The translations under genes were made by a program, and so were the position numbers. A stretch of 64,000 bases of DNA. Source: Candidatus Nitrosothermus koennekei. Its GTDB lineage: Archaea > Thermoproteota > Nitrososphaeria > Nitrososphaerales > Nitrosocaldaceae. The stretch covers positions 1-64,000 of the forward strand of contig JACAFH010000006.1 in the NCBI GenBank assembly GCA_013538715.1, written 5' to 3'. The notes beneath the pieces were generated by a model that was not told the DNA's origin, did not search any database, and was given only the letters and a program-made list of their open reading frames with translations. The first letter of the stretch is position 1, and the number at the start of each line of letters is the position of its first letter. This document shows, in pieces, positions 6,858 to 47,576 of this stretch.

Positions 6858-8153
6858 ATGAGGTTAGAGAGTAGATATAAGGTAGATGGTTCGAGGAGCG
6901 TTGAAGTTAAGGATACTCTAAGAAGAATAGAATCTCTAGCAAAGAATATCGGTGTATCTAGGGTAGCAGATATAACACATTTGGATATCCTAAGAATACC
7001 TAACTATTCTGCAGTATTGCCTGGTACTGAAGATTATATATGGGTCTATAGTGGTAAAGGTCCTACAAAAGCTCATGCAAAGGCTAGTGCGTTGATGGAG
7101 TGTATAGAGAGATATTCATCATTCCCTTCGCGCGGTTTTGATAATAGATTAATAAGAGCAAGTTATGAGCATATGATTAAAGAGTATGGTAAGGATGCAG
7201 TCTTGAGTGTTGATGAGTTAGTAGAACCTCTAAAACTACCTTATAGAGATGATATGGTAATTGATTTTATAGATGGTATAGATCTATTTAATAATGAAAG
7301 AGTCTTTCTTCCTGCTGGCATAGTTTTAAGTAGATATGAACCAAATAATAATACTATAAATCCATTTAAATTATCTCATACTAACGGTTTAGCCTCTGGT
7401 AATGTTATTGAAGAGGCTATAGAACATGCATTATGTGAAGTTATTGAGAGAGATGCCGTCAGTTTAGCAGAGCTTAGATCTAGTGTCTTACAATTTCATA
7501 AATTAAAGATTATTGTAGATAGACTAAACTCGCTTGGTTATAAGATAAGATTTGACGATAATGAGTTTGTAGATGATACGAGTATATTTGATGAGGTAGA
7601 TGTTAGTAATATAAGCATACCATTTGCGAAGTATCTCATTAATAGATTTAAAGAAGAGAACATACCATTACTCATCAAAGATGTAACAAGTGATATAGGC
7701 ATACCTACATTTATAGCAACAAGTGTGCAATGGATTACAGACGATTATGGATATTTGGCTGAGGGACATGGCACACATCCAAATGCTGGAATAGCACTAA
7801 TAAGAGCAATAACTGAAGTATCACAAACTAGAGCAGCAAACATACATGGAGCAAGAGACGATTTAAGGAAAATAGATTATAGAAGAGGCAGCGTAGAGAA
7901 TAAAGCATGGCAGTTTATGCATTCTAATACTAAATCTTTTGAGAGTATTAAGAGTTATGATCATAAGGATATATTAGAAGATATTGAATTCACTCTTTCA
8001 TCGTTACGGAGAGCAGGGCTAAATAAAGCAATAATTGTAGATCTTACAGATAAAGAGCTAAAGATACCAGTGGTAAGGGCTGTAGTTCCTGGCCTTGAGA
8101 CATTTAAGGTAAGTAGAAGTATAATAGGATGGAGAGGTATGAGGTATCTATGA
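6858..8153 (+). CDS. ycaO: YcaO-domain ATP-dependent peptide-backbone modifying enzyme
   Basis: YcaO proteins activate peptide amide oxygens with ATP, giving azolines, thioamides or amidines. This 431-residue protein has the ATP/Mg-binding glutamates in ALMECIERYSS (Glu81, Glu84) and CEVIERDA (Glu194, Glu197), plus AITEVSQTR further on. The C terminus ends WRGMRYL without the Pro-rich PxPxP tail of azoline-forming cyclodehydratases; together with the adjacent TfuA partner this favours a thioamide-type reaction. Methanogens use a YcaO-TfuA pair on methyl-CoM reductase, which this kind of organism lacks, so the target here must be something else. The stop codon overlaps the tfuA start (ATGA). 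Confidence 0.93.
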   Translation: MRLESRYKVDGSRSVEVKDTLRRIESLAKNIGVSRVADITHLDILRIPNYSAVLPGTEDYIWVYSGKGPTKAHAKASALMECIERYSSFPSRGFDNRLIRASYEHMIKEYGKDAVLSVDELVEPLKLPYRDDMVIDFIDGIDLFNNERVFLPAGIVLSRYEPNNNTINPFKLSHTNGLASGNVIEEAIEHALCEVIERDAVSLAELRSSVLQFHKLKIIVDRLNSLGYKIRFDDNEFVDDTSIFDEVDVSNISIPFAKYLINRFKEENIPLLIKDVTSDIGIPTFIATSVQWITDDYGYLAEGHGTHPNAGIALIRAITEVSQTRAANIHGARDDLRKIDYRRGSVENKAWQFMHSNTKSFESIKSYDHKDILEDIEFTLSSLRRAGLNKAIIVDLTDKELKIPVVRAVVPGLETFKVSRSIIGWRGMRYL

Positions 8154-41361: not shown

Positions 41362-41661
41362 TTGGTTAAGAAGCTCTCTGTAGAGTATACAATGCTTGCA
41401 ATACTTGAATATATGTGCCTTTATACTAAAGATACTCCAGTTACTAAATATCATCTAATAAATCATGTAAAAGGTTTAAGCGCACAACGATCTGATAGAA
41501 TTACTAATATAATAAATATATTAGAGAGTAATGGTTACGTACGTTCTATCAAGACATCTACTACTACATTTTATCAAGTTACTGAAGAAGGCATAAAGGT
41601 TTATTATAAATGGGTTAGAGATTTCTTAGAGTTCTTTCGTAATGTACATAATCTAGAATGA
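41362..41661 (+). CDS. Winged-helix DNA-binding protein
   Basis: A 99-residue protein with one winged-helix domain: LAILEYMCLYTKDTPVTKYHLINHVKGLSAQRSDRITNIINILESNGYVRSIKTSTTTFYQVTEEGIKVYYKWV. This is the archaeal PadR/MarR-like regulator shape. The start codon is TTG at 41362. Its end overlaps the convergent membrane gene by 9 bp. Target unknown. Confidence 0.75.
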   Translation: MVKKLSVEYTMLAILEYMCLYTKDTPVTKYHLINHVKGLSAQRSDRITNIINILESNGYVRSIKTSTTTFYQVTEEGIKVYYKWVRDFLEFFRNVHNLE

Positions 41662-42387
41662 TATAGTAGGTTTCTCTACTAATACTATTCTATCTATGCC
41701 CTTTACTTTATTGGTCTCTATATGTTCAATCTTTTCTGCTATTATTATGCCTATTCCTACTTTATTATTAGTAATCTTATGATATCTTACCAATTGCTCT
41801 ATAAATTTATTTATCGTTTCTTTGTCTGCCTCTTTTGTTATTCTGGCTATAATAGAACCATAATCTTGTAATATTTTTTTTGCATCAGCATCAACATTAT
41901 CCTTATCAATCACTATATCGAATACAGCATCGCCAACTTTAACATCAAAGAACCTATTTATAGTATTGGTTCGAGTATATCGCTGGATCAAATTATTAAT
42001 TTCGCTTACACTCTCTGCAATAGCATATAATATTTCTTCCTTCTTTTTATCTTTCGTTAACAAACTAATGTTAGCTTTTAATGAAGCTGATTCAAACATA
42101 TCATGCCATCTATTAAGCGTTTTCTTAATCTTTAGTATATACATGAATGAGATTGCTAATATAGAGAGTAATGTTATCAATATTATCATTATTATTACGT
42201 CATGTAGATATTCATTACTTAAACCTATTACATGTAATAGTCCAATTATATCCATTATACTAAATATAGTTAATAAGACGGTTACATAGATAATTATTGT
42301 AAAAAAACTTGAGAATGAATTTATAAGACTAGCAGCATTTTTACTATATTTAGTTACTATAAAAGGTGATTCATCGTCATTATTCAT
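41653..42387 (-). CDS. Hypothetical two-helix membrane protein with cytoplasmic domain
   Basis: A 244-residue protein with two membrane helices (about 28-50 and 64-88) near the N terminus and a 150-residue cytoplasmic domain (FFDVKVGDAVFDIVIDKDNVDADAKKI, later VGIGIIIAEKIEHI). The latter looks alpha/beta, with alternating strands and helices, and could be nuclease-like, but I see no convincing active-site set. No family recognised. Confidence 0.7.
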   Translation of the reverse strand: MNNDDESPFIVTKYSKNAASLINSFSSFFTIIIYVTVLLTIFSIMDIIGLLHVIGLSNEYLHDVIIMIILITLLSILAISFMYILKIKKTLNRWHDMFESASLKANISLLTKDKKKEEILYAIAESVSEINNLIQRYTRTNTINRFFDVKVGDAVFDIVIDKDNVDADAKKILQDYGSIIARITKEADKETINKFIEQLVRYHKITNNKVGIGIIIAEKIEHIETNKVKGIDRIVLVEKPTISF

Positions 42388-42495: not shown

Positions 42496-42951
42496 ATGTA
42501 TAAAGAGATAAAGACTCTATCAACGATTACATTGGCGCTGTTATTGATAGCAGGATTTTTAGCCTACACACCTTCCATACCTTCACTAAATATACAAGTA
42601 TTTGCAGATGACTCCAATGATGATAGCTCCAGAGATGACTCCAATGATGATAGCTCCAGAGATGACTCCAATGATGATAGCTCCAGAGATGACTCCAATG
42701 ATGATAGCTCCAGAGATGACTCCAATGATGATAGCTCCAGAGATGACTCCAATGATGATAGCTCCAGAGATGACTCCAATGATGATAGCTCCAGAGATGA
42801 CTCCAATGATGATAGCTCCAGAGATGACTCCAATGATGATAGCTCCAGAGATGACTCCAATGATGATAGCTCCAGAGATGATAGATTACGTAATGTAATA
42901 GAACAAATAAAAAAGATTATAATGGCTATTATAAAATCAATTAAAATCTAG
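42496..42951 (+). CDS. Secreted acidic tandem-repeat protein
   Basis: A 151-residue protein with a signal peptide (residues 1-37, ending IQVFA). Residues 38-127 are ten perfect copies of the nonapeptide DDSNDDSSR, giving an extremely acidic, Ser-rich, probably disordered segment. The last 24 residues (RLRNVIEQIKKIIMAIIKSIKI) form a basic amphipathic helix that could lie on the membrane. Such repeats could bind Ca2+ or other cations. It opens a three-gene unit with two further acidic exported/membrane proteins. Confidence 0.85.
   Translation: MYKEIKTLSTITLALLLIAGFLAYTPSIPSLNIQVFADDSNDDSSRDDSNDDSSRDDSNDDSSRDDSNDDSSRDDSNDDSSRDDSNDDSSRDDSNDDSSRDDSNDDSSRDDSNDDSSRDDSNDDSSRDDRLRNVIEQIKKIIMAIIKSIKI
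42607..42876 (+). repeat. Ten perfect 27-bp tandem repeats
   Basis: The unit GATGACTCCAATGATGATAG plus CTCCAGA occurs ten times head to tail without a single mismatch, in frame, encoding DDSNDDSSR. Perfect identity at silent positions indicates recent expansion by slippage or recombination, so copy number may vary between strains. Confidence 0.97.
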
Positions 42952-42961
42952 ATGATGAGAT

Positions 42962-43267
42962 ATGAGAGTAATATATATAATTATAATATTTTTTAGTTTG
43001 ATATTTGTGCCATATAACATTTATAATGCTAATGGAGATTCAATATTACAGTTTAGCTATAATGAAAGAGAAGACGATAATGAAAGAGAAGACGATAATG
43101 AAAGAGAAGACGATAATGAAAGAGAAGACGATAATGAAAGAGGAGTCGTTTTAGGTAATGGAATAGCTGATATAATATTTTACAGTACTATAGCATCTAT
43201 AGCAGGAGTTTGCGGTTATGTAATTTATAAGATAATAAGAATGAAAAAGAACATGATCAAGAAATGA
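42962..43267 (+). CDS. Membrane protein with extracellular NEREDD repeats
   Basis: A 101-residue protein with a signal or first membrane helix (residues 3-20), an extracellular acidic segment of four perfect hexapeptides NEREDD plus a partial fifth (about 34-60), then a membrane helix (about 66-90, GIADIIFYSTIASIAGVCGYVIYKII) and a basic tail. It begins 10 bp after the first repeat gene and overlaps the next gene by 4 bp. Different repeat, same acidic character as its neighbour. Confidence 0.8.
   Translation: MRVIYIIIIFFSLIFVPYNIYNANGDSILQFSYNEREDDNEREDDNEREDDNEREDDNERGVVLGNGIADIIFYSTIASIAGVCGYVIYKIIRMKKNMIKK
43061..43132 (+). repeat. Four perfect 18-bp tandem repeats
   Basis: AATGAAAGAGAAGACGAT repeats four times exactly, followed by a partial copy (to 43142). 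It encodes NEREDD. The unit is unrelated to the 27-bp repeat 200 bp upstream, so two independent arrays arose in adjacent genes. Confidence 0.97.
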
Positions 43268-43734
43268 AAATTATATTCATTATATTTTTATTATTAATTC
43301 CATATCCAGTATTTGCTGATGATGATGAAGATAGTGCTAAAATGTTAGGATGGGCTGCTATAGGTGCAGGTGCTCTATCAAACATAACATTTGTGATTTA
43401 TAATAGAGTCAGGAAGATATCATCAATATATAGTAAAGATCTCACAAGAAATTTGGCATTAATCTATAAACCAATGCTAAGTTGGCACATAATGCTTAAC
43501 ATAACAGGATATATAGCAGGTATGATGCATGGTTTATTACTAATACGATATCTAGATCCTATATCATTATCACTTGCAATAATAATGACAATATTAGTAG
43601 TTAGTGGATTACTATTAAGATACACCTCATCTAGAGATCTTAAGTTATTTAATAAATTGTTGCATGGACAATCTGTTTTAACTATTTTGTTAATAATATT
43701 GATAGTATTGCATGTGTTATCTGCAGACGATTAG
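43264..43734 (+). CDS. Four-helix membrane protein with heme-type histidines (cytochrome b561-like)
   Basis: A 156-residue protein with a signal peptide ending VFA, an acidic start of the mature chain (DDDEDS), and four membrane helices. Four His sit in two pairs: His75 and His89 (14 apart; WHIMLNITGYIAGMMHG) and His134 and His150 (16 apart; HGQSVLTILLIILIVLH). These spacings match b-type heme ligands in cytochrome b561 and ferric-reductase cores. Transmembrane electron transfer is therefore plausible, not proven. It is the third gene of the acidic-repeat unit and ends one base before the convergent ABCE1 gene. Confidence 0.7.
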   Translation: MKIIFIIFLLLIPYPVFADDDEDSAKMLGWAAIGAGALSNITFVIYNRVRKISSIYSKDLTRNLALIYKPMLSWHIMLNITGYIAGMMHGLLLIRYLDPISLSLAIIMTILVVSGLLLRYTSSRDLKLFNKLLHGQSVLTILLIILIVLHVLSADD

Positions 43735-46922: not shown

Positions 46923-47576
46923 TTAATCCCACTTACTCCATGCTGCTGCCCATCTATATGTCCATGTATTTAACTTTGCTCCAAATGCTGCTATTGGAGG
47001 ACACATAACTGCACTAATACCAGCACCTAGTGCTACTGGACTGTTGTAGAATTTACCTACTTGTGGCTCTATTGGAGTCATATATTGCGGTAATGTCGGT
47101 CTTGGGTACTTGAAGGCTATCTCTAATGGATCTACTATTGTCATATAGTTTATCATGTTGAACAATGGGAATGACATTCCTGCTAATGATCCTCCTATTA
47201 ATATTAATGCATGCTTATTCCTATTTGTAGCCCAGTATGCTAGATCTAATAGCATACAGCTTGGTATGAACACTGGCCATCTCATAAAGTCATATGGGTA
47301 ACCTAGTCCACCAATCCATGCCCACATTGCAACCCAACCATAAACCGTCATTATTAAACCATAGTATGTTGCTGTGCCAGGAACACCAGTAAAGAGTAGG
47401 TAATAAACAGCACCTACTACAGTCATGGTAGATAAACCTAGGTTGAATAATACATACGATGTCCATCCCCAATCAGAATAGAATAGATAGTCTCCTGTAT
47501 TGATAACTAATAGCGTTGAATTTACTGCTACTACCACTATGAAGAGATAGTGTACTGTTCGTCTTATCCAGACCAT
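46923..47576 (-). CDS. amoA: Ammonia monooxygenase subunit A
   Basis: Membrane subunit of the copper enzyme that oxidizes ammonia to hydroxylamine, the energy source of this organism. The 217-residue protein is a typical archaeal AmoA: it opens VWIRRTVHYLFIVVVAVNSTLLVINTGDYLF, has YYGLIMTVYGWVAMWAWIGGLGYPYDFMRWPVFIPS and ends NTWTYRWAAAWSKWD, with about six membrane helices. The gene is preceded by amoX on the same strand; amoB and amoC are not in this window. A good TATA box lies just upstream, so it can be transcribed alone. Confidence 0.98.
   Translation of the reverse strand: MVWIRRTVHYLFIVVVAVNSTLLVINTGDYLFYSDWGWTSYVLFNLGLSTMTVVGAVYYLLFTGVPGTATYYGLIMTVYGWVAMWAWIGGLGYPYDFMRWPVFIPSCMLLDLAYWATNRNKHALILIGGSLAGMSFPLFNMINYMTIVDPLEIAFKYPRPTLPQYMTPIEPQVGKFYNSPVALGAGISAVMCPPIAAFGAKLNTWTYRWAAAWSKWD

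Follow-up and report, generated by a model that had tools for sequence, protein, structure and literature searches.

In cytochrome b of the bc complexes and in cytochrome b6, the second helix carries histidines spaced as H-X13-H, and a second His pair follows two helices later. Makarova and colleagues (PMC5898192) placed DUF4405 (arCOG04002, PF14358) in the cytochrome b family, seeing in it one half of a b561 that carries two heme His, and in Thermococci they found genes for secreted proteins, for an ArsR regulator and for ferritin-like proteins next to it; eukaryotic cytochrome b561 has six transmembrane (TM) helices (PMC10005133). Here we report an archaeal gene pair (genes 2 and 3 below) that we read, with a probability of about two in three, as a compact membrane cytochrome b unit with an acidic-armed subunit, which would pass electrons to an extracytoplasmic acceptor. 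No account of the pair was found in the literature searched, and in the main text of the N. viennensis copper-limitation transcriptome study no passage naming the locus was found for an assumed range of locus tags.

The locus lies in a window of 64,000 nucleotides (the whole stretch of DNA analysed) from a source genome of 1.46 Mb. The G+C content of the window is 31.1%, only slightly lower than the range of 31.9-33.1% given for Candidatus Nitrosothermus in PMC7819960, and thus fits that genus. Taken together, the G+C content, the genome size and the AmoA gene noted below point to an ammonia oxidiser of the Nitrosocaldaceae. Its features are the following:

41653-42387, minus strand: divergent neighbour, 244 aa, two N-terminal TM helices and a soluble domain, no Pfam match
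42496-42951, plus strand: gene 1, 151 aa (ORF and translation), 10 bp 5' of gene 2
42606-42881, plus strand: array 1 within gene 1, period 27, 10.2 copies in a draft assembly (exact number uncertain), 100% matches
42962-43267, plus strand: gene 2, 101 aa (ORF and translation), of the family found directly upstream of gene 3
43059-43142, plus strand: array 2 within the acidic arm of gene 2, period 18, 4.7 copies (likewise uncertain), 100% matches
43264-43734, plus strand: gene 3, 156 aa, predicted bis-His cytochrome b
43486-43488, plus strand: His75 codon, TM2, predicted cytoplasmic side, invariant in 55/55 homologues
43528-43530, plus strand: His89 codon, TM2, predicted outer side, H-X13-H with His75, invariant in 55/55
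43663-43665, plus strand: His134 codon, TM4, predicted cytoplasmic side, invariant in 55/55 homologues
43711-43713, plus strand: His150 codon, TM4, predicted outer side, H-X15-H with His134, invariant in 55/55

The three ORFs are co-directional and, given the 10-bp gap between genes 1 and 2 and the 4-bp overlap between genes 2 and 3, look like a single transcript. No Rfam RNA was found in the region. From its translation we take the gene at 46923-47576 (minus strand) to encode AmoA; a link of the unit to these nearby amo genes was considered and rejected, as the relatives' loci examined sit among other genes. A viral or plasmid origin was likewise rejected, as viral contigs yielded no relatives and the plasmid comparison no match.

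As originally noted, two adjacent exported proteins carry different acidic arrays that are perfect at the DNA level. The longest exact runs in the window are 249 bases for period 27 and 66 bases for period 18, whereas 20 mononucleotide shuffles of it gave 10 and 11, and hence the arrays are not due to chance. Their perfection means recent duplication or expansion and is in itself no sign of function. At the protein level array 2 amounts to four NEREDD units. Array 1, found at one locus only within the source genome, encodes ten DDSNDDSSR units, which in the gene 1 product stand between a signal peptide and a short cationic amphipathic C-terminus (DRLRNVIEQIKKIIMAIIKSIKI).

The gene 3 product has a signal peptide followed by an acidic N-terminus and four TM helices, and without the signal peptide its AlphaFold2 model consists of four helices (pLDDT 85.7), in agreement with the four-helix protein with an acidic outer start that had been proposed. 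It contains exactly four His (H75, H89, H134 and H150), and all four are kept in 55/55 non-redundant homologues, which come from ammonia oxidisers and further Thermoproteota. When 25 sequences are aligned, some with as little as ~25% identity to the protein of the window, the invariant columns number just seven (G29, L72, H75, H89, G115, H134 and H150). This is the pattern one expects of a bis-His heme protein, and it provides the strongest evidence in the case, so that the heme-ligand role foreseen for these residues is well supported as a sequence-based prediction and heme binding by gene 3 is likely. We also looked for the opposite outcome, homologues devoid of the histidines and never near repeat proteins, and did not encounter it.

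Charge distribution sets the probable orientation of these residues. Across the 55 sequences the N-terminus has on average 4.8 D/E versus 0.6 K/R, the TM1-TM2 and TM3-TM4 loops have 5.2 and 4.1 K/R versus 0.5 and 0.2 D/E, respectively, and many homologues end in DD, ED or EE. Both termini are thus predicted to lie outside, which would place His75 and His134 near the cytoplasm and His89 and His150 near the outer face. It is very improbable that the unit binds no heme at all, with the acidic repeats and His serving in calcium or metal sequestration or as surface charge and the gene order being incidental: acidic low-complexity exported proteins do occur near some loci, but the invariant His lie inside TM helices, one near each face, and the gene 2/3 linkage spans families.

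How many hemes gene 3 would hold is less certain than that it binds heme. The original prediction had both His pairs spaced like b-heme ligands, and this holds for the first, which is the classic H-X13-H in 55/55 homologues, but not for the second, which is H-X15-H (spacing 16) in 54/55. On an ideal helix His134 and His150 are ~160 degrees apart, so two equivalent heme sites would need a helix irregularity; the X15 pair, together with the non-significant fold matches described below, makes a count of two hemes less secure. The remaining homologue, L087 (5982-6557, minus strand), has spacing 14 in the second pair, and thus H-X13-H in both; it is the most distant outlier and has the best cytochrome b561 score, and is a possible bridge between the gene 3 family and known b cytochromes. 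We regard as quite unlikely a protein with one heme only, bound by His89/His150 on the outer side, in which His75/His134 would have a metal, quinone or other role: it would fit the helix-phase problem of the second pair and the fact that the best-matched Pfam model, DUF4405, spans TM3-4 only, but all four His are equally invariant and L087 has both pairs at the shorter spacing. A predicted diheme protein remains our preferred reading of gene 3.

Homologues of gene 3 occur in 41/400 genomes of the order (29/209 good genomes), and a profile search extended the family to five further families (f19, f35, f37, f39 and f56) of the class and phylum. Named loci include those of Nitrosotalea devanaterra, Nitrosotalea bavarica and Nitrosocaldus schleperae, together with loci from MAGs of Nitrosopumilus, Nitrosotenuis and a member of the Nitrososphaeraceae. 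The branching of the gene 3 tree is in broad agreement with taxonomy, which suggests that the unit has been maintained by selection.

Gene 2 encodes a protein with a signal peptide, an acidic arm on the outside, a single TM helix towards the C-terminus and, on the inside, a basic tail. In ammonia oxidisers and family f37 it lies directly upstream of gene 3 in 28/28 testable loci (28/30 overall, the exceptions being L106, at a contig edge, and L118, a decayed copy), at a distance ranging from -67 to +21 bp; in L098 and L099 (f9) it was recovered as an ORF for the TM block only. Across loci the TM block is conserved and the arm is kept in composition only: it is D/E-rich in most lineages, with D+E reaching ~0.7 of the arm, and nearly gone in Nitrosotalea. 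One homologue (L101, 6527-7195, minus strand) has a long Gln/Asn/His-rich arm that is not acidic. Perfect repeats were found in none of the gene 2 homologues, which share the acidic composition only. In f19, f35, f39 and f56 no gene 2 was found directly upstream of gene 3, and the gene 3 product often has a longer acidic N-terminus; in the gene 3 tree the clade with gene 2 is apart from that without it, with incomplete support.

The conserved unit therefore comprises two genes, not the three originally put forward, since the non-repeat parts of gene 1 have no relative within the family outside the source genome; the perfect repeats, and gene 1 with them, are a local, lineage-specific elaboration. 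As to whether acidic-repeat genes accompany gene 3 elsewhere, acidic gene 2 arms do so in most lineages and three extra exported acidic proteins occur near a few loci, but the repeats themselves are not conserved. These three (in L097, L113 and L114) were found among ~334 genes near gene 2/3 loci of ammonia oxidisers, compared to 0/1103 genes in control regions, 312 of them from the source genome. With a Fisher p of 0.012 under a scan criterion set after the finding had been seen, a concentration of such proteins near these loci is suggestive only. Two belong to Nitrosopumilus MAGs and adjoin the gene pair: one in L114 (1037-1936) with DDDDR-type runs and pentapeptide repeats, and a 69-aa DDR-rich protein in L113 (1737-2012).

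Genes 2 and 3 are a real, widely conserved archaeal membrane unit, and an accessory and dispensable one rather than core machinery, as the pair is missing from most ammonia oxidisers, including G092 (which we take to be N. maritimus SCM1), and gene 3 is broken by frameshifts, at different places, in two Nitrosocaldaceae genomes, G001 (L118) and G003 (L117). G001 also has a truncated gene 2, which borders on a tRNA-like 3' end, and G003 a split version of the divergent 244-aa gene. Flanking genes differ between lineages, and the pair is thus self-contained. In Nitrosocaldaceae and in family f7 the 244-aa gene stands divergently beside genes 2-3, and its closest subtype (E below 1e-100) adjoins them in 5/5 genomes having it (G000, G004, G073, G082 and G088); more distant paralogues occur without genes 2-3 in f7. 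Its product is an accessory in part of the family, a recurrent but not universal neighbour. An ArsR-type regulator and a 136-141-aa membrane protein are similarly recurrent, not universal, near the pair in f9.

In the mechanism that we propose, the mature gene 3 product would be a four-helix protein with both termini outside, and the gene 2 product its dedicated small subunit, with the TM helix packing on gene 3 and the negative arm projecting outside. A donor in the cytoplasm, or else the quinone pool, would supply electrons, which would pass through the two predicted hemes to an acceptor outside, most plausibly a metal ion or a copper protein; the acidic surface would attract or hold this acceptor, whether Fe(III), Cu(II) or a redox protein that carries positive charge or copper. 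Gene 1 with its perfect repeats may represent a lineage-specific enlargement of that surface. The device first suggested, one that transfers electrons at the membrane and has an acidic outer face, is hence still the most likely reading, with gene 2 as obligate upstream partner in ammonia oxidisers and f37, but its repeats are not a conserved part of it.

Some loci of the family contain metal or redox genes (for a P-type ATPase, multicopper oxidase, CDF transporter, cupredoxin or ferritin-like DUF2202 protein, the last 3' of gene 3 in L082). In addition, L110 encodes a protein with metallothionein-like Cys repeats (GEGCTC units; 6922-7656, minus strand) beside a gene 2/3 pair. A specific version of the main reading is an extracytoplasmic Fe(III)/Cu(II) metalloreductase like Dcytb/CYB561, whose acidic arm would gather ions before divalent-metal uptake. 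It would accord with an acidic outer surface beside a predicted transmembrane b cytochrome, with the metal-handling genes at some loci, and with the reduction of Fe(III) chelates by ammonia oxidisers, where the surface reductase responsible in N. maritimus SCM1 is reported not to have been identified (PMC6776035). Neighbours vary, however, and metal genes abound in these genomes. Moreover, if G092 is SCM1, as we presume, its lack of a match means that the unit cannot be the reductase sought in that strain, and we consider this version rather doubtful.

A different acceptor is possible, though we would not favour it: the unit may be a quinol-linked conduit or redox sensor for an extracytoplasmic cupredoxin, multicopper oxidase, thiol or peroxide protein, with the acidic arms serving for docking only. 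Ammonia oxidisers use cupredoxins, a peroxiredoxin gene lies directly 3' of gene 3 in four f19 loci (L088, L089, L090 and L091), and a multicopper oxidase or YVTN propeller is near others, but no one redox partner is conserved beside the unit across lineages. Finally, a bolder proposal, which we hold to be unlikely, would treat the unit as a separate class, so far undescribed, in which a minimal archaeal diheme cytochrome b and its dedicated, intrinsically disordered acidic subunit capture and reduce extracellular metal; the acidic surface would evolve fast by repeat expansion and by recruiting further exported acidic proteins.

Should the preferred reading of a cytochrome b unit with an acidic-armed subunit be right, ammonia-oxidising archaea and further Thermoproteota would have one more module for transmembrane electron transfer, and there would be a concrete candidate for surface metal reduction, at least in lineages carrying the pair. 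It is directly testable, as the pair is carried by the cultured Nitrosotalea devanaterra (L039) and by G082, presumably Nitrososphaera viennensis.

Compared with known families, gene 3 resembles several groups of b cytochromes without a significant match to any. No model passed cut-off in Pfam and NCBIfam searches, and a PDB sequence search gave no over-threshold family. Below threshold (E up to 1), DUF4405 matched 14/17 close gene 3 members, at best with 0.0014, and DUF2427 and Ni_hydr_CYTB were also among their weak Pfam matches; in the wider set Ni_hydr_CYTB went down to 5e-5 and DUF4405 to 1.2e-4, both below cut-off, and no listed member reached the DUF4405 gathering score. Weak as they are, these matches converge on heme-b families. 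Fold searches with two AlphaFold2 models gave non-significant matches only (best E 0.05-0.08), in which NOX5, cytochrome b561, STEAP1 and bc1 appear among many unrelated four-helix bundles, and no internal duplication of TM1-2 and TM3-4 was detectable by hhalign.

With DUF4405, gene 3 shares the character of a short archaeal membrane protein whose TM helices bear a heme-type His pair, and the alignment covers TM3-4 only, where the invariant H134/H150 provide the conserved pair typical of that family. It differs in that a signal peptide is followed by four TM helices with two His pairs, in X15 in the second pair, in its obligate single-TM acidic partner and in lacking a match over the curated cut-off. 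Like prokaryotic and eukaryotic cytochrome b561 (PF01292; Dcytb/CYB561), gene 3 is expected to hold two b hemes, one per membrane face, and to move electrons across the membrane. There is no significant sequence or fold match to that family (best PF01292 score 23.6 bits, for L087, against a cut-off of 30.1; PF03188 absent from all match tables), the ligand arrangement differs, and the eukaryotic proteins have six TM helices rather than four. The two His pairs on two TM helices also recall the ferric reductase-like TM domain of NOX, FRE and YedZ/MsrQ, but PF01794 matched no gene 3 member, the proteins end after TM4 and have no FAD/NAD(P) domain, and, unlike for YedZ/MsrQ, there is no MsrP neighbour. 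Cytochrome b of the bc and b6f complexes shares with gene 3 H-X13-H in TM2 and a further His pair two helices on. Its second pair is X13/14, in contrast to the X15 of gene 3 in 54/55 homologues, gene 3 has neither a C-terminal domain nor a Rieske gene alongside, and hhalign against cytochrome b, with small, shallow alignments, gave an E of 0.18, no better than control families. Although gene 3 has no established place in a named family, it most likely works, judging from its sequence, like a small cytochrome b.
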